DNA of 32,051 nucleotides from an uncultured beta proteobacterium. GTDB taxonomy: Bacteria > Pseudomonadota > Gammaproteobacteria > Burkholderiales > Burkholderiaceae_C. Made by a program: the position numbers and the translations under genes. Below, one piece after another: positions 1,351 to 26,604 of the stretch. Within the stretch, counting starts at the first letter, position 1, and each line of letters starts with the position of its first letter. The stretch covers positions 1-32,051 of the forward strand of contig CAIPBW010000171.1 in NCBI GenBank assembly GCA_903863395.1, written 5' to 3'. Under the pieces are notes generated by a model. That model saw only the letters and a program-made list of their open reading frames with translations. It did no database searches and was not told the origin of the DNA.

Positions 1351-2737
1351 ACGTCAAAGCCATGGCCTCGGAAACGGGGGCAGAACGAACGCCTTCGATC
1401 TTAATCAATAGTTCCCCCACTTGCTCCTTTGAAAGGCTGCAAATCTCGAAATCTTGATGTGCTGCAACCAGCGCCGGGTAGCACGATGCTTGAAATTGTT
1501 CGAACAATTCCGTGCTCCAAACAATCTGGCTGCAAGCGCTCAACTGTGCCCAGTTCAGCCTTTGGTCACACGCCTCAATCAGTTCCGTGCTCCAAGGTAC
1601 GCCGCCATTTTGGCTGATACTCTCCCAGTCCCAGCGCTCCTGGTAACGCGCAAGCAACTCGGCGCTCCAGTGCAGCGCCGCATTGCCACTGAGCCGCGAC
1701 CAGTCCCAGCGCTCCTGGTAACGCTCCAGCAATTCGACACCCCAGGGCAAGGCGGCGTTGCCGCTAAGTTGCTCCCAATCCCAGCGCTCCCGGTTGCACT
1801 CCAGCAGCTCAAGCGTCCAGGGCACAGCCGCATTGGCACTTAGCCGCTTCCAGTCCCAGCGCTCCTGGTAATGCGCCAGCAACTCAGCATTCCACGGCAG
1901 CGCCGCGTTGGCGCTCAGACGCTCCCAGTCCCAGCGCTCCTGGTAATGCGCCAGCAACTCAGCATTCCACGGCAGCGCCGCGTTGGCGCTCAGACGCTCC
2001 CAGTCCCAATGCCCCAGGTGACGCGCGACCAATGCCAAGCTCCAGGGCAGCGCCGCATTGCCAGAAAGACGGCCCCAGTCCCAACGCTGCCGATGCTGTT
2101 CCAGCAACTCCGCGCTCCAGGGCAGCGCGGGGTTGCCACTAAGCCAGGCAAAACTCCAGCGCGCAGAGAACCGCTGGATCAGATCGATGTTCCAGGGCAA
2201 AGAGGGATTGGCGCTTAAACCGGCCCAATCCCAGCGGTCGACGTAGTTTTCGATCAGTGCTGTGCTCCACGCCAGGCCCGCATGCCAACTCAGCCAGGCC
2301 CAATCCCAGCGGTCAACGTAGCGCTCAACCAGTTGAAAGTCCCACGGCAAACCGGTATTTCTGCGCAAGCGCGCCCAGTCCCAGCGGTCCTTGAAGTGCT
2401 CAATCAGTTCGACGCTCCAGTGCCACCCGGCATCGGCACTCAACCGGGCCCAACCAAGCTTGGAGCCCATGCGCTCCAGAGCGCAAGGGCTCCAGGCAAT
2501 GGCGCGGTTGCTGCCCAGCAGTTTCCAATCCCATTGGTCACCATGGTGCTCAATCTGCTGTGCTGTCAGCGGGTAGTGGCGCTGCACGCATTGGAAGTAC
2601 AGCTCCGGCTGGCGCTCAAAGAACTGCATCAGCTCGCTCTGGTGCAGGCTGGCCAGCGTTGTCTGCACGATATCGCAGCGCCGCACCAGCGCGCTGGAAA
2701 GCTGGTTTGCAGACGCGACGGGAATGAGTGCGCTCAC
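1337..2737 (-). CDS. Tandem WDW-repeat protein (about fourteen 25-aa repeats, consensus RWDWxxLSxNxALPWxxELLxxYQE)
   Basis: ORF 1337..2875; the likely start is GTG at 2737, which overlaps the upstream TGA as GTGA (VSALIPVASANQ...). The repeats are directly visible in the translation. Confidence 0.85.
   Translation of the reverse strand: MSALIPVASANQLSSALVRRCDIVQTTLASLHQSELMQFFERQPELYFQCVQRHYPLTAQQIEHHGDQWDWKLLGSNRAIAWSPCALERMGSKLGWARLSADAGWHWSVELIEHFKDRWDWARLRRNTGLPWDFQLVERYVDRWDWAWLSWHAGLAWSTALIENYVDRWDWAGLSANPSLPWNIDLIQRFSARWSFAWLSGNPALPWSAELLEQHRQRWDWGRLSGNAALPWSLALVARHLGHWDWERLSANAALPWNAELLAHYQERWDWERLSANAALPWNAELLAHYQERWDWKRLSANAAVPWTLELLECNRERWDWEQLSGNAALPWGVELLERYQERWDWSRLSGNAALHWSAELLARYQERWDWESISQNGGVPWSTELIEACDQRLNWAQLSACSQIVWSTELFEQFQASCYPALVAAHQDFEICSLSKEQVGELLIKIEGVRSAPVSEAMALTFGVA
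1851..2000. repeat. Two identical adjacent 75-bp direct repeats inside the WDW-repeat gene
   Basis: 1851-1925 and 1926-2000 are letter-for-letter the same (cagtcccagcgctcctggtaatgcgccagcaactcagcattccacggcagcgccgcgttggcgctcagacgctcc); identity continues 8 nt into the next unit. Confidence 0.95.
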
Positions 2738-3978
2738 GCCTGCATTTCCTGTGAAAACTGATTTAACTCCGTCATGTAGTGCTGCATTGCCGCCTTCAGA
2801 CGCTTGGCCTGCTGCGCGAACCACGCGTTCCAATCCGGCTTCGAACTGAGCTCTTTCCAACTCTTGCTTTGCCACACCGCAGCCAACTGTCGGTTTCGTT
2901 GCGCCAGCGTCTGCTGCAACTCGGCCAAGCGCTGTTGCAGTTGCTGCTTCGGATCAATGGCAGCCGACTCGACCCTGACACCCAGGCCGGTTTCAATGCT
3001 GCCCCGCAACTTCTGCAAGCCCGCAAGGTCGCTGTTCTGAAACGTGGTTTGCAACTGCTGAAAGTACCCTTGTGCGTGGCCCTTGTCCTCTTCGCGGACA
3101 CGATCGGGGTGGCACTGCATCGCCAGTTTGCGGTAGAGATGCTTGAGTTCACGCTGTTGCACCGGGTCGAGTTGCTCGGGTGCGACTTCACTGGCCTTGG
3201 CCGAGCGTGCCTCTTCGTAGTCGCGATACACGTCGTCTGCGGCTTGCGCCTGCTGGCGCTGCAAATCGTCCTGCTGGTGCTGGTACTGGGCATGGAGGTA
3301 GCGGCGCTTGAGGTCAAGGTAGCGCCGCATCAGGTCGCCAATGGCCAAATCCTGCTGGTGGTCGAACAGATGAATCTGGCGGTGAATATCGGCAATTTCG
3401 GTTTCAATCGCAACGACTCTGGCCTCGGTCATGCGAATATGCAAGCGCATTTCTTCGAGTTGCGCATCCTCGTACACGCTCAACGCAGCGCCCTGGCTCT
3501 GCCCTGCATCGCTTGAAACTTCCTCGAATCCGGTAGTCTGCGGGGTGTCACCGACCAGTGCCAGGAAACTGCGGCGCACGTAGTCTGCAATCTCGCCGTC
3601 GTGCTGCACCAGGATGGAGACCCGCGTATCGCCATCCTGAACGGCCGTCCACTGAAAATCGCCGCTGACCACCGTGAAGTCATCAATCAAACACACCGAT
3701 TCATCGCCGTCCGTGGGAATCTGCGGCAACCAGTACAGCGTTGCCCCTAACGCCGTGAGGCGCTCCCAGGCATTGGACGCGTGGCGGTTGGCGGTGCAAT
3801 CGGCAAGAACCAGTGCTACGCACACGCCCCGGCGCTGGCAGGCCACCAGCGCTTCAAACAAATCCCGGTCGGTAAACTCTTGCACCATCACTCGCACGCT
3901 GTGCCGGGCAGAGGCCAAGTGCCGTGCAATCGCGCTCGGGATTGCGGAAAAATGGGCTTCAACTTGCAAGGGCTGCAT
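2734..3978 (-). CDS. PLD-like domain (apparently catalytically degenerate) + coiled coil + J-domain protein
   Basis: N-terminus resembles the PLDc_2 fold (HLASARHSVRVMVQEFTDRDLFEALVACQRRGVCVALVLAD...CLIDDFTVVSGDFQWTAVQDGDTRVSILV) without an HxK motif; C-terminal part has a J-domain helix with intact HPD (ELKHLYRKLAMQCHPDRVREE). Confidence 0.75.
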   Translation of the reverse strand: MQPLQVEAHFSAIPSAIARHLASARHSVRVMVQEFTDRDLFEALVACQRRGVCVALVLADCTANRHASNAWERLTALGATLYWLPQIPTDGDESVCLIDDFTVVSGDFQWTAVQDGDTRVSILVQHDGEIADYVRRSFLALVGDTPQTTGFEEVSSDAGQSQGAALSVYEDAQLEEMRLHIRMTEARVVAIETEIADIHRQIHLFDHQQDLAIGDLMRRYLDLKRRYLHAQYQHQQDDLQRQQAQAADDVYRDYEEARSAKASEVAPEQLDPVQQRELKHLYRKLAMQCHPDRVREEDKGHAQGYFQQLQTTFQNSDLAGLQKLRGSIETGLGVRVESAAIDPKQQLQQRLAELQQTLAQRNRQLAAVWQSKSWKELSSKPDWNAWFAQQAKRLKAAMQHYMTELNQFSQEMQA

Positions 3979-3984
3979 CGTGCT

Positions 3985-5166
3985 TCAGTCCAGATCAACG
4001 AGATTGCGCTTCTGGCAGTCGCGTGCCATCTTTTGCGCCTGCGCAATTTGTTGCGCCGTCATTTGTTTGGCCACCAACTCGCGCCCGTTCAGGGCGTCGG
4101 GATTGCCCGCTGCTGCGGCGATGTTGAACCACATATGGGCGCGCTCATACTCCTGCAGCGTGCCCTGGCCGTTGGCGTACATCCATCCAAGATCGACCTG
4201 CGCCGGCGTAGACCCCTGCGCGGCTGACAGGCGGAACCACTTGACGGCCTCCACATAGTCCTGGACCACGCCATTCCCGCCCTGGTACATCAGGCCCAGA
4301 CTGTGCTGTGCAAGCCGATCGCCCTGCGCCGCAGCCAATTCGAACCAGCGCAAGGCCTGGCTATAACTTTGGGCAACACCCTGGCCGTTGGCATGCATCA
4401 CGCCCAGGTTGAACTGGGCATCAGCATCACCCTCAGCCGCCGCCAGGTGGTACCACTTGAGCGCCAGCGCAAAATCCGGCTCCCCGCCCTGCCCGGTGTG
4501 GTACAGCAAGGCAAGGTTGACTTGGGCAATGGTGTCACCCTGCTCGGCCGCCAGGCGATACCAGCCCAGCGCCTGTTCGCGGTTTTGCGCCACTGCACGG
4601 CCGCTCGCAAACAGCACGCCCAGGTTGTATTGCGCCGCCGCTATTGCCTGATCAGCCGCGGCCTCAAACCATTTGGTAGCCTGCTGTTCGTCGCGCTCAC
4701 CGCCCAAACCGTTAAGCAGCATGAACCCCAAGTTGAACTGGGAGCGTGCATGGCCCTGGTTGGCCGCCTGTGTATACCAATGGCGCGCCTGCAGATCGTC
4801 TTGGGCCACTCCTTTTGCCGTGGCGTACATCACCCCGAGCGCGTACTGCGCGTCGGCCGAGCCCTTGGCCGCTGCGAGTTGGTACCAGGTGAGGGTCTGG
4901 GACAAATCCTGGGTGACGCCTTGCCCCTGAGCGTACATAACGCCCAGATTGAGCTGCGCGGGCTCATAACCGCTTTGCGCCGCCAAGCCGTACCATTTGA
5001 GCGCTTCGTGGTAGTCCTGCTCTACGCCTAGACCATTGGCGTACATGAAAGCCAGATTATTTTGCGCGACGGCGCAGTCAAATGCGGGAGCAGGCTCCCA
5101 TGCAGGCAGCGTCGCAGAGGGTGCGCCAGCCTGTTTCATGGACAGATCTTCAACTAAACTGTTCAC
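3985..5166 (-). CDS. Sel1-repeat protein
   Basis: 393 aa with about nine Sel1 repeats (AQNNLAFMYANGLGVEQDYHEALKWYGLAAQSG...). Confidence 0.9.
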   Translation of the reverse strand: MNSLVEDLSMKQAGAPSATLPAWEPAPAFDCAVAQNNLAFMYANGLGVEQDYHEALKWYGLAAQSGYEPAQLNLGVMYAQGQGVTQDLSQTLTWYQLAAAKGSADAQYALGVMYATAKGVAQDDLQARHWYTQAANQGHARSQFNLGFMLLNGLGGERDEQQATKWFEAAADQAIAAAQYNLGVLFASGRAVAQNREQALGWYRLAAEQGDTIAQVNLALLYHTGQGGEPDFALALKWYHLAAAEGDADAQFNLGVMHANGQGVAQSYSQALRWFELAAAQGDRLAQHSLGLMYQGGNGVVQDYVEAVKWFRLSAAQGSTPAQVDLGWMYANGQGTLQEYERAHMWFNIAAAAGNPDALNGRELVAKQMTAQQIAQAQKMARDCQKRNLVDLD

Positions 5167-22375: not shown

Positions 22376-23239
22376 ATGTTCGGCATCATCGGAATCGTGT
22401 TTTTGCTTGTCTGCGTGTTCGGCAGCTTTGTCGTAGGCGGGGGCAACATGAAACCGTTTATCCACGCGGCCCCGATTGAGGGCTGGTGTATTTTCGGCTC
22501 TGCCATCGGCGGCATGCTGATCGGCAACAGCGCCGACGTGGTCAAGGCGGTGCTCGCGGGCATTGGGCGCTGCTTCAAGGGCTCCAAATACCACAAGGAA
22601 GACTACCTCAACACCATCTTCTGCGTCTCCAAGGTCATGAAGACGCTCAAGTCCGAAGGTGCCGTGGCCCTGGAAGCCCACATCGAAACCCCCGAGTCCA
22701 GCGCCATCTTCAGCGAATACCCCAAGCTCTTGGCCGACCATGCCTTGCTGCACCTGATTACCGACACCGTGCGCTTGATGGTGGTCTCGCAAGGCACGCT
22801 CAGCCCGATGGCAGTGGAAGAAGTGATGGACACCGCCATCAAAACCCACCACCACGACGAACTCAAGGCCTCGGACGCCATTGCCACCCTGGCTGGCGCC
22901 TTGCCTGCGCTGGGGATTGTGTCCTGCGTGATGGGCGTGGTGAAAACCATGGACAACATTGACCAGCCACCCGCCATCTTGGGTGGCTTGGTGGGTGCGG
23001 CCCTGGTGGGTACGTTTATCGGGGTGTTCCTGGCTTACGGCTTTTTCGAGCCCTTTGCCAAGCGCTTGTCGCAAGTGATTGAAGACGAGTCCTGCATGTA
23101 CCACGTGGTCAAGCAAATCATCATCGGCACCATGCACGGGCATCCCATGCCACTGATTCTGGAAGCGGCGCGCGTGGCTATCAGCCACCACAACCAGCCC
23201 AGTTTTGCCGAAGTCTTTGACGGCATGCGAGGTAAGTAG
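22376..23239 (+). CDS. motA: Flagellar stator protein MotA
   Basis: ALPALGIVSCVMGVVKTMDNIDQPPAILGGLVGAALVGTFIGVFLAYGFFEPFA. Confidence 0.97.
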   Translation: MFGIIGIVFLLVCVFGSFVVGGGNMKPFIHAAPIEGWCIFGSAIGGMLIGNSADVVKAVLAGIGRCFKGSKYHKEDYLNTIFCVSKVMKTLKSEGAVALEAHIETPESSAIFSEYPKLLADHALLHLITDTVRLMVVSQGTLSPMAVEEVMDTAIKTHHHDELKASDAIATLAGALPALGIVSCVMGVVKTMDNIDQPPAILGGLVGAALVGTFIGVFLAYGFFEPFAKRLSQVIEDESCMYHVVKQIIIGTMHGHPMPLILEAARVAISHHNQPSFAEVFDGMRGK

Positions 23240-23241
23240 CC

Positions 23242-24234
23242 ATGGCTGATTCGGAAGAGTCCCCAAAAGCCCCGCCCGAGGCAGTACCCCCCACGGATGA
23301 GGCCAGCGCAGAAGGCGACAAGCCGGCGGTGCCGGAGGGCTTAGCGCCCATCATCGTCATCAAGAAGATTCAGGCCGGTCACGCCGGTGCCCACGGCGGT
23401 GCCTGGAAGATTGCCCTGGCGGACATGATGACGGCCATGATGGCTTTCTTCTTGCTGATGTGGATTCTGGGTGCCACCAACGAATCGCAGCGCAAGAGCG
23501 TTGCCGATTACTTCAAGCCCACCTCGCACAGCGAAGTCACGATGGGCAAGCTCGCCGGCTCCAACGGCATCATGGGCGGCAAGTCCATCATCGACACCGA
23601 CGGTTTTCCCTTCACTGCACGCCAAACTGCCCCGCTGCAGCGCCTGACGCCGCGCTCTGAAGGTGGTCCGACCGAGAACGACCCCTCGCCCAACAGCGAA
23701 AACGCCCGCGATAGCGACCAGATCAGCCAGGCCGAGAAGCGCAAGATTGTCGAAGAGGCCGACCAAAGCAACTTTGACAAGCTCGAAAAAGAGGTGAAGG
23801 AGCACCTTGCAGAGAATCCAAAGCTGGAAAAGATTCAAGACCAGGTGAAATTTGTACGCGAAAAGGAGGGCCTGCGCATCGAGATCATCGACAAGGCCGA
23901 CTTTGCCATGTTCGCCCTGGGTACCAGCCAACTCGAACCCAAGGCGCAAGCGCTGATCGAGGAAGTCTCTCGCTCACTGGCCAGCATGCCCAACAAGCTC
24001 AGCATTCGGGGGCATACGGACAGCGTAGCGTTCGCCAATTCACAAGGTCGCAATAACTGGTCGCTCTCGGCTGAGCGGGCAGAGTCAACACGCGCCTTGC
24101 TGGAGCACCGCGGTGTCGGCACGAAACGCTTCGCGCAAATCGAAGGCGTTGCAGACACCGATCCGTACAACCCCAACGATCCCAAAGATCCGCGTAATCG
24201 CCGCATCAACATCACGGTGCGCTACCGCGATTGA
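23242..24234 (+). CDS. motB: Flagellar stator protein MotB
   Basis: GGAWKIALADMMTAMMAFFLLMWILGATNESQRKSVADYF plus OmpA-like C-terminus (LSIRGHTDSVAFANSQGRNNWSLSAERAESTRALLEHRGV). Confidence 0.97.
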   Translation: MADSEESPKAPPEAVPPTDEASAEGDKPAVPEGLAPIIVIKKIQAGHAGAHGGAWKIALADMMTAMMAFFLLMWILGATNESQRKSVADYFKPTSHSEVTMGKLAGSNGIMGGKSIIDTDGFPFTARQTAPLQRLTPRSEGGPTENDPSPNSENARDSDQISQAEKRKIVEEADQSNFDKLEKEVKEHLAENPKLEKIQDQVKFVREKEGLRIEIIDKADFAMFALGTSQLEPKAQALIEEVSRSLASMPNKLSIRGHTDSVAFANSQGRNNWSLSAERAESTRALLEHRGVGTKRFAQIEGVADTDPYNPNDPKDPRNRRINITVRYRD

Positions 24235-24263: not shown

Positions 24264-24962
24264 ATGGATGAGCCAGCAACACCGCCAGCGGTGCCGGAAA
24301 AATTGTTTACGTTTCAAGACTATCTCTTTCTGAGTTATCTTGCTTTTTGCATGTTCTGCGTGGCCTGGGTTGGGCGCATGGCCTACAACGAGGGCATGCA
24401 CAACGAGATCACCAAACGCAACGGTGAACAGTGGGCCAAATGGTTCACCGAAGCTTCCCCGGAACGTGTCAAACCCGACTTTGCGCTCGCGGCCTGCAGC
24501 ACCGCCGCGCCCCCGGTAGTCGCACCCGTGGCGGCCACCCCGGCAACACCCGAAACTGCGGCGACCAATCCAGCATCGGAGGTCCCCTCCGAAGCCACTG
24601 GGGGTGCCATCCCTGTGCCGGTTGAGCCAAAGCCGGTAGAGGCCGCACCTCCCGCACCGCCGGTAAAAGCCTGGGGACCGTGCCAGCAAGCTTTGACGGC
24701 CAAAGGCGGGCCGCTGGCCGACATGATCAATCCTTTTAGCAATCAGCCCGTTGCTTTGGTCGCCAAGTGCGACATGACCGACCGCTCTCTGGCTGGCGCT
24801 CTGGTTCTGGAAAAAATACAGAACACGCCGCCAGGTTCCGCCATCTCGACCATCACTTCGCAGTTGGTCGAAACCGACCCGATCGACCAGAAGATGCAAC
24901 TCCGGATCACGGTCTGCGACAAGGGTGCCTACCCGATTCGCATTGCCGAACTCGACTTCTGA
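24264..24962 (+). CDS. Single-TM protein of unknown function with Pro/Ala-rich linker, between motB and the channel gene
   Basis: Start refined to ATG at 24264 (MDEPATPPAVPEKLF); TM DYLFLSYLAFCMFCVAWVG; C-terminal presumably periplasmic domain with CQQ...KCDMTD...TVCDKG. Confidence 0.75.
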   Translation: MDEPATPPAVPEKLFTFQDYLFLSYLAFCMFCVAWVGRMAYNEGMHNEITKRNGEQWAKWFTEASPERVKPDFALAACSTAAPPVVAPVAATPATPETAATNPASEVPSEATGGAIPVPVEPKPVEAAPPAPPVKAWGPCQQALTAKGGPLADMINPFSNQPVALVAKCDMTDRSLAGALVLEKIQNTPPGSAISTITSQLVETDPIDQKMQLRITVCDKGAYPIRIAELDF

Positions 24963-24972
24963 GGAACGTACC

Positions 24973-26604
24973 ATGGAAACCGCCAACAACCTCTCCAAAA
25001 TTCATGGTTACAACAGCAAAGCGAACATATCGCATGACATGCCGGTCCGCAAATGGATCTACAGCTGGCTGCTCGACCCGACGGTGCCGGGCAACTACCA
25101 AAAATCCATTGACCGCTGGATTGCGATCCTGATCATCACCAACCTGATCGTGCTTTTGTTTGAGCACGTTCCAGCGATCTACGAGCCCAACAAAGTTCTG
25201 TTTCACGCCTTCGACGTATTTTCGGTAGCGATCTTCACCGTTGAATACTTCCTGCGGCTCTACCTGGCACCGGAAGACCACGAGTTCAAAGGCAAGGGGT
25301 ACTCCCACCTGCGCTATATCTTCAGCCCCTTTGCGCTGATCGACTTCATGGCAGTCGCCCCGTTCTACCTGCAAGCATTCATTCCCGTGGACCTGCGCAT
25401 GTTGCGGTTCTTGCGGCTGCTCAGAATCTTGAAACTGTTTCGGGTGCTGATTCCGGCCATTAAACAGTTTGTCATTGCCAATAAGGGCCGCACGTTCCGC
25501 AAAAAAGTGCATGCCTTGATATTCCCGAGCCCCTACGGTGGCGCCCTGCAAGGCATGTTTGACAACTTCATCGTGCTGTGGGTGGTGATCTCGGTGGTGG
25601 CCGTGGTGCTGGAGTCGGTGCAAAGCATCCACTACCACCTGAACCTGCAATTCATCATTCTTGATGCGGTAGCCGTGGGCGTTTTTACCCTGGAGTACAA
25701 CATGCGGCTGTTTTGCTGCGTGGAAGAACCGCGTTACCAGGGTGAAATTATGGGGCGGTTCAAGCAAGGCGGCGAGACCACCGCCATCATCGATCTGTTG
25801 GCGATCGTGCCCTTCTATCTGGAAGCCTTCCTGCACCACTTGTTCGACTTGCGGTTTTTGCGGGTATTCCGGCTGCTGCGGCTGCTCAAGCTCACACGCT
25901 ACACCGGTGCCACCAAGACCCTGACCCAGGTGATCGTGCGCGAGTGGCCCGTGCTTGCCGCATCGGCCTTCGTCATGATGCTGCTGGTGGTCCTTACCGC
26001 CAGCCTGGGCTACCTGTTTGAGCACGAGGCGCAACCTGACAAGTTCGAAAACATTCCCCAGTCAATTTACTGGGCCGTCATTACACTGGCATCGGTGGGT
26101 TACGGAGACATTTCGCCAGTGACCCCGATGGGGCGGATCATGACCATCGTGCTGGCGTTGTTGGGTATCGGTATCTTTGCCATCCCCGCGGCTTTGCTGT
26201 CCTCGGCCTTCAGTGATCAGTTGCGCATCGAACGCGAAACCCTGCGCGACGAGGTTTACCACATGCTCGCCGATGGAACCATTTCCGAGCATGAGGCGGA
26301 CAAGATCAACGCCGAAGCCAAACGCCTGCACTTGAGTGAAGATGAAGTCAAACGCATGATTGACAAGGCCAAGCGCGAGCGGGAATTAAAAGACGACGTC
26401 TCCACGCTTCCGATACACAAAATAGCGGCCACCCCGGAGCACGCGGTGGAGCACTTCAAGTTCATGCTCTCCCAGATCCGCCAGTTGGGCATCATGGCCG
26501 ACGCTGAAAAGTTCCAGGCCGCAGCCGTCAAGAATGACCGCCTGACGAGTACCGAAATGGCCCTGTGGCAACAGATTCAAGGAAAATCAGCGCCGCCTGG
26601 CTGA
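24973..26604 (+). CDS. Voltage-gated K+ channel-like protein with two tandem voltage-sensor domains and one pore
   Basis: Two S1-S4 modules, each with an FTxEYxxRL S2 and an Arg-rich S4 (LRMLRFLRLLRILKLFRVL at 25393-25449; LRFLRVFRLLRLLKLTRY at 25849-25902); one pore loop with TLASVGYGD at 26083-26109. Confidence 0.92.
   Translation: METANNLSKIHGYNSKANISHDMPVRKWIYSWLLDPTVPGNYQKSIDRWIAILIITNLIVLLFEHVPAIYEPNKVLFHAFDVFSVAIFTVEYFLRLYLAPEDHEFKGKGYSHLRYIFSPFALIDFMAVAPFYLQAFIPVDLRMLRFLRLLRILKLFRVLIPAIKQFVIANKGRTFRKKVHALIFPSPYGGALQGMFDNFIVLWVVISVVAVVLESVQSIHYHLNLQFIILDAVAVGVFTLEYNMRLFCCVEEPRYQGEIMGRFKQGGETTAIIDLLAIVPFYLEAFLHHLFDLRFLRVFRLLRLLKLTRYTGATKTLTQVIVREWPVLAASAFVMMLLVVLTASLGYLFEHEAQPDKFENIPQSIYWAVITLASVGYGDISPVTPMGRIMTIVLALLGIGIFAIPAALLSSAFSDQLRIERETLRDEVYHMLADGTISEHEADKINAEAKRLHLSEDEVKRMIDKAKRERELKDDVSTLPIHKIAATPEHAVEHFKFMLSQIRQLGIMADAEKFQAAAVKNDRLTSTEMALWQQIQGKSAPPG

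Follow-up and report, generated by a model that had tools for sequence, protein, structure and literature searches.

A bacterial Kv-type channel family with two voltage-sensor domains and a single pore per subunit, and its conserved upstream partner gene

The channel gene at 24973-26604 of the window, that is, of the whole 32,051-nucleotide stretch of DNA from an uncultured freshwater beta proteobacterium that we analysed, encodes a subunit in which two voltage-sensor domains (VSD1 and VSD2) stand in front of one pore with a K+ filter sequence. Both sensors are conserved among the relatives of the channel, and its constant neighbour is the gene at 24264-24962, not motAB. The protein is rather probably a voltage-gated member of the Kv superfamily of K+ channels that has as many as eight sensors and an accessory subunit of its own: its subunits would form a tetramer, conduct K+, respond to voltage, bind the partner and act on membrane potential or motility.

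A central question of channel biophysics is what number of sensors acts on a single pore and in what way their movements sum. The present channel is natural and conserved, and each of its pores is served by twice as many complete sensors as usual, an arrangement that, to our knowledge, has otherwise been made solely by engineering. With it come an undescribed family of partner proteins and a sister lineage that has lost the pore and kept sensor and partner. Channel and partner are small bacterial proteins that suit expression, cryo-EM and electrophysiology, and they may offer a handle on the sensing of membrane voltage in bacteria.

Layout of the channel gene and its protein

The open reading frame is intact: a ribosome-binding-like GAGGAA precedes the ATG at 24973, the stop codon ends at 26604, and the product has 543 amino acids. 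Its parts are the following.

24973..26604, + strand: dual-VSD, single-pore K+ channel gene (intact open reading frame, PF00520 twice, PF07885 once, 92 distinct full-length relatives)
25099..25452, + strand: VSD1, aa 43-160, S1-S4 with no pore behind (AlphaFold2 helices 43-63, 74-101, 119-136 and 141-169; Pfam match to the VSD only)
25393..25443, + strand: S4 of VSD1, aa 141-157 (charges R142, R145, R148, R151, K154, R157)
25453..25542, + strand: linker with pre-S1 helix, aa 161-190, connecting the two sensors (invariant columns P161, N170, R176, A181, G190)
25543..25908, + strand: VSD2, aa 191-312, leading by way of the S4-S5 linker into the pore (full Pfam Ion_trans match at aa 195-416; AlphaFold2 helices)
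25849..25899, + strand: S4 of VSD2, aa 293-309 (charges R294, R297, R300, R303, K306, R309)
25909..26226, + strand: S4-S5 linker, S5, pore loop and S6, aa 313-418 (PF07885 at aa 336-413; lowest dN of the segments)
26083..26109, + strand: selectivity filter TLASVGYGD, aa 371-379 (T371, S374, G376, Y377, G378 and D379 in 92/92 relatives)
26227..26601, + strand: cytoplasmic helical C-terminus, aa 419-543 (from profile HMM comparison with single-VSD channels and pore-dead derivatives)

The Pfam family Ion_trans (PF00520) matches this frame twice, the first time over a VSD only (profile positions 4-112, 59 bits) and the second time over a full VSD and pore (profile positions 3-236, 110 bits), and Ion_trans_2 (PF07885) matches once, at the single pore. 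The AlphaFold2 model of the monomer has a mean pLDDT of 79.3, about 80-94 in VSD1 and only 46-65 around the filter. It predicts a bundle of four helices (aa 43-169) and a second such bundle (190-311) with a short helix between them (175-183), and then S5, pore helix and S6; in this model no pore-like segment follows VSD1, and a linker of about 30 residues is found there instead. The order VSD1, pore-less linker, VSD2, one pore had been proposed in the initial annotation, and it is borne out by Pfam, by AlphaFold2 and by the 92 relatives. The open reading frame coordinates given there are exact and the quoted motifs (S2 signature, S3 Asp, periodic S4 Arg/Lys, TLASVGYGD) are all present. A pore (S5-P-S6) after VSD1, which would have overturned the proposal, is excluded by the model together with Pfam, and the fusion of two genes by frameshift or misassembly by the 92 distinct full-length relatives.

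Both VSDs contain the charge-transfer set of Kv channels, namely E64/E214 in S1, F88-E91/F238-E241 in S2, D124/D274 in S3 and six basic residues in each S4, so that the S1-S4 sensor with its periodic S4 Arg/Lys, S2 acidic residue and S3 Asp is found twice per chain. The filter has Ser at the first site of the TxGYG-type K+ signature. VSD2 and the pore together read as a standard Kv subunit, with an RRRRKR S4, F-x-x-E in S2, D in S3 and the filter TxxSVGYGD. The best match among PDB sequences is KCNQ4 (E 7e-26), the best fold matches are KCNQ4 and Kv4.2, and the nearest solved relatives by both sequence and fold are the human Kv7, Kv4 and Kv1-type channels. However, members of the Kv superfamily (KCNQ/Kv7, Kv4, Kv1/Shaker, bacterial KvAP) have one VSD per pore, whereas here a second complete VSD stands in front. 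Two-pore channels and the tandem Kv channels described in eukaryotes (PMC7576140) also have two VSDs per chain, but they repeat the whole six-helix unit, with a pore after each VSD, and here the VSD alone is repeated. Hv1-like proteins, which consist of a VSD only, have no pore, whereas PF07885 is present here. Judged by these features, the protein is a member of the superfamily of voltage-gated K+ channels that departs from the others in the ratio of VSDs to pores. That VSD1 could be a proton channel seems unlikely, since the full set of Kv countercharges is present.

The suggestion that no characterised bacterial channel has this layout agrees with our search, which found no bacterial dual-VSD channel in the literature that it covered, most subscription journals and preprints lying outside; that two sensors with one pore is a new layout among searchable bacterial channels is thus supported. 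The window's own genome (G000, 3.44 Mb in 568 contigs) has no further Ion_trans gene. Single-VSD Kv-like channels of the same or related bacteria (L121, L140, L064) are about 300-340 amino acids long and have a related VSD, pore and early C-terminus, with HMM matches that stop by about model position 491. They differ in lacking the last domain of about 60 residues, which is unmatched in the single-VSD channels examined, and no partner gene was seen beside them. The same C-terminal region is common to the pore-dead derivatives described below (match 475-537).

Conservation, origin and distribution

The scan of 85,462 species genomes returned 170 relatives, of which 80 loci were kept. Nearly all are from Burkholderiales, and many come from lake or river metagenomes, judged by their titles. 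Most genomes with the channel are metagenome-assembled (MAGs); isolates include Limnohabitans sp. 2KL-17 (L051) and T6-20 (L073). The search for homologs with two VSDs and one pore yields 92 distinct full-length relatives, which share 53-84% identity with the window's channel and all have its layout, and the layout is intact in about 100 loci, two isolates among them. These intact relatives and isolates, together with the complete plasmid of Gemmobacter discussed below, rule out a frameshift, a chimera or a MAG artefact, and the conserved layout shows that this kind of channel exists in nature.

Across the 92 relatives, the RRRRKR charge ladder of Kv channels, the Glu of S2 and the Asp of S3 are retained in both sensors. 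In the S4 of VSD1, R148, R151, K154 and R157 are found in 92/92, R142 in 86/92, and position 145 is R or K in all 92; in the S4 of VSD2 the six charges are R or K in 92/92, R309 being K in three. D140 and D292 are unvarying, and so are the filter residues T371, S374, G376, Y377, G378 and D379 (92/92). Within the window's clade, the mean dN is 0.034 for VSD1, 0.068 for VSD2, 0.020 for the pore, the lowest, and 0.134 for the C-terminus. Since dN is low where dS is mostly above 0.5, VSD1 is under strong constraint; by this measure it is as constrained as VSD2, and hence no relic.

A tree of 121 columns was built from 26 VSD1, 26 VSD2 and 43 single-VSD sensors. In it, each of the two sensors of the dual channels forms one clade (100/99), and the two clades are sisters (97/75), the support for the joint clade being moderate and the columns few. 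The simplest reading of these sister clades, and one that fits them, is a single old internal duplication of the VSD before the family spread.

The distribution was searched with profile A3, which spans VSD1 and VSD2. Of 100 genomes from the window's genus, 34 have a dual channel, which a contig end truncates in G044; the order adds one further genome among 299. In samples of a few hundred genomes each, 369 from the class and 349 from the phylum, no match spans both VSDs apart from the window's own: the matches cover one sensor only. A tblastn search against 72,556 plasmids gave one distant dual form among the best of 97 plasmid matches. This protein, WP_159082572 (L165:4842-6317), is encoded on plasmid NZ_CP028919.1 of the alphaproteobacterium Gemmobacter aquarius, is annotated merely as "ion transporter", and is 36% identical over residues 33-418. 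The S4 of its VSD1 is thinned and partly neutralised, with fewer charges, which suggests that a working VSD1 is not universal. No partner gene was found beside it.

The upstream partner, motAB and the pore-dead derivatives

Near its start, on the minus strand, the window encodes a protein (1337-2875) that consists of many imperfect repeats of the type WDWxxLSxNAALPWxxELLxxYxERW; its neighbours are a protein with a J-domain-like HPD motif (2734-3978) and a Sel1-like repeat protein (3985-5166). The window also takes in the last part of a flagellar gene cluster. Its MotA, MotB, FliS and FliR were identified by profile; FlhF and FleN/FlhG by profiles of GTPase or ParA-type domains and by position; and FlhB, FliP, FliM, FliL, FliK, FlhA and FliA by reading the sequence. 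Three genes lead up to the channel.

22376..23239, + strand: motA, context (TIGR03818, 321.6 bits)
23242..24234, + strand: motB, context (MotB_plug and OmpA; ends 29 nt before the start of the partner gene)
24264..24962, + strand: conserved partner, 232 aa (neighbour in 97/103 loci; AlphaFold2 model; no database family)

The gaps in the series motA, motB, partner, channel are 2, 29 and 10 nt, and neither a sigma-70-like promoter nor a plus-strand terminator-like hairpin was found between motB and the channel start. The initial annotation missed that the gene between motB and the channel, immediately 5' of the latter, is the conserved partner. It is present in 97 of the 103 loci whose upstream sequence reaches 350 nt or more; in this set a few loci are the same contig twice and three are the window itself: BLAST finds it in 96 and an HMM in one more (L110). 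It is always on the same strand, and its distance to the channel ranges from -34 to +85 nt. All 34 dual-channel genomes of the genus have the partner, against 1 of 66 others (P = 6e-26, uncorrected for descent), and the dual channel of G1001, a genome from another family, is likewise preceded by it. It was undetected in six loci (L017, L020, L045, L079, L098, L100), and is therefore not strictly required by the channel. In two of these, both outside the motAB group, the channel has genes for K+ transporters beside it, as read from the sequence, a setting that favours the K+ channel reading: a Kup-like gene in L098, and TrkA/TrkH-like genes in L100.

The AlphaFold2 model of the partner (pLDDT 88.8) predicts one N-terminal helix, at 17-67 and with its transmembrane part first, followed by a four-stranded sheet. 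Cysteines C78, C140, C169 and C218 are invariant; together with the N-terminal anchor they suggest a periplasmic beta domain. No relatives were found in Pfam, NCBIfam or the PDB sequences. A long helix and a sheet bring to mind a pilin-like fold, a reading rejected after a Foldseek search of the PDB that gave no match below E 0.3. Among the accessory subunits of Kv channels, KCNE and DPP6/DPP10 cross the membrane with one helix. By analogy, the partner is likewise single-pass and would be expected to act with a Kv channel, but no similarity of its sequence or fold to any solved protein was found.

The initial annotation also asked whether such channels recur beside motAB. They do so in seven distinct loci besides the window (L033, L034, L035, L036, L037, L044, L060), where motB adjoins the partner-channel pair, in most cases with motA too; however, most loci lie elsewhere, and in Limnohabitans, Polynucleobacter and most others the channel is away from motAB. 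With seven distinct loci against 97 of 103 for the partner, motAB is rejected as the conserved neighbour. Genome G062, conversely, has a window-type motAB with neither partner nor channel behind it. The presence of MotA is no guide to motility: it is found in 20/20 dual-channel genomes tested, but also in 48/49 good-quality genomes of the genus. It is only the type of MotA that correlates. The window's type, with a lower score and a model end at 279, is found in 28/34 dual-channel genomes against 7/66 others (P about 1e-12, with partial matches sorted by hand and uncorrected for phylogeny). Two MotA1 genes, unlike in type, are present in the window's genome, G000:C78:2401-3249 (388 bits) and 22376-23239 (321 bits), and the dual channel accompanies the second.

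Seven genomes of the same genus (L158-L164) contain a divergent partner, scoring about 130-143 bits, that lies directly behind motB in six of the seven; in L164 the contig begins just upstream. Beside it is a derivative of the channel, readable in six genomes (L161 is cut by a contig end), of about 370-400 residues, with examples at L160:4227-5378 and L163:4380-5495. These derivatives align to VSD2, S5, S6 and the specific C-terminus, and have neither VSD1 nor a selectivity filter. Their reading frames are intact. Three regularly spaced arginines are kept in S4. The counter-charges are exchanged: S1 and S2 have Asp in place of Glu, and S3 has Glu in place of Asp. Their pairwise dN/dS, about 0.15-0.37, argues against plain decay; at the motAB site, a pair of sensor and partner has thus outlasted the conduction path. 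Of the proposed link with motility through motAB, what remains is a flagellar connection that is partly supported, by the derivatives behind motAB and by the MotA type, and that is weakened by an adjacency to motAB in only seven distinct loci.

Proposed function and alternatives

We favour a tetrameric, K+-selective channel whose subunit would have been born from one internal duplication of the voltage sensor; with two sensors per subunit, the tetramer would have eight. VSD2, in the ordinary Kv position, would open the pore through the S4-S5 linker. VSD1, a complete second sensor outside the core of VSD2 and pore, most likely tunes gating, either by adding to the charge moved or by setting a second voltage threshold, and it is possibly the docking place of the partner, a putative dedicated accessory subunit with a disulfide-stabilised periplasmic domain. 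On depolarisation, K+ efflux would steady or restore the membrane potential, which powers the stators and flagellar export; in the window's lineage this role may be tied to the flagellar cluster. Three systems are close to parts of this scheme. Flagellar export in Salmonella is voltage dependent (PMC8179193). In E. coli biofilms, one of the two hyperpolarisation events depends on the K+ channel Kch (PMC11928028). NaVBP, a voltage-gated Na+ channel of alkaliphilic Bacillus, has a role in motility (Ito et al. 2004, as cited in PMC4225499); it differs from the dual channel in carrying Na+, in having one VSD per subunit, and in being thought to feed ions to the stators. We take all three as analogies, and not as evidence on the window's channel.

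The docking place could be the whole role of VSD1: it would be a membrane module that holds the partner and does not sense, leaving VSD2 alone to gate as in an ordinary Kv channel. That partner and channel are almost inseparable speaks for this, as does the conserved linker between the sensors (P161, N170, R176), which might be expected of a docking surface. However, 92 relatives preserve the six S4 charges, the S2 Glu and the S3 Asp of VSD1, beyond the needs of docking, and the pore-dead derivatives have a partner without VSD1, so that something other than VSD1 must hold it there; we consider this reading unlikely. Another reading, in which a common K+ channel serves osmotic or K+ homeostasis and its extra VSD arose as a neutral duplication that was fixed in one group, agrees with a restricted, patchy distribution and with the modest known roles of bacterial Kv-type channels generally. 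It sits badly with a VSD1 that is intact down to 53% identity, with a very low dN at near-saturated dS in the window's clade, and with a conserved partner that accompanies the channel, and we give it very little credence.

The derivatives bear on a further alternative, a voltage-signalling device for the flagellar motor, in which sensor movement would be passed through the periplasmic domain of the partner to MotB or the cell wall, conduction being secondary. The series motB, partner, channel in the window and seven other distinct loci points this way, and so do derivatives that lost filter and VSD1 and kept, at the dN/dS given above, a VSD and the specific C-terminus; NaVBP (Ito et al. 2004, as cited in PMC4225499) is a bacterial precedent for a voltage-gated channel that acts on motility. 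But most loci are not near flagellar genes, G062 has motAB without partner or channel, and the dual channels show no variation in the filter, and we regard this as improbable. Equally improbable is the conjecture that the eight-sensor channel and its disulfide-bonded partner form a voltage-sensing module able to work without ion flow, and that one lineage gave up pore and VSD1 and kept the remaining sensor and the partner behind motAB, where they would report membrane voltage to the stator.

Some genomes hold more than one channel gene. In L057, L063, L064, L067, L068, L070, L077, L082-L084, L099 and L107, the dual channel occurs with two single-VSD channel genes of about 300 amino acids. In L064 this pair has the filters TSGYGN and ISGWGN, against SVGYGD, and a pore helix one residue shorter; with such altered filters, channels of this type may not be K+ selective. 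Genome G030 contains three copies of the partner-channel pair (contigs C204, C161 and C8), with channels 79-83% identical to the window's, and in C161 and C8 MotA matches lie directly upstream of the pair.
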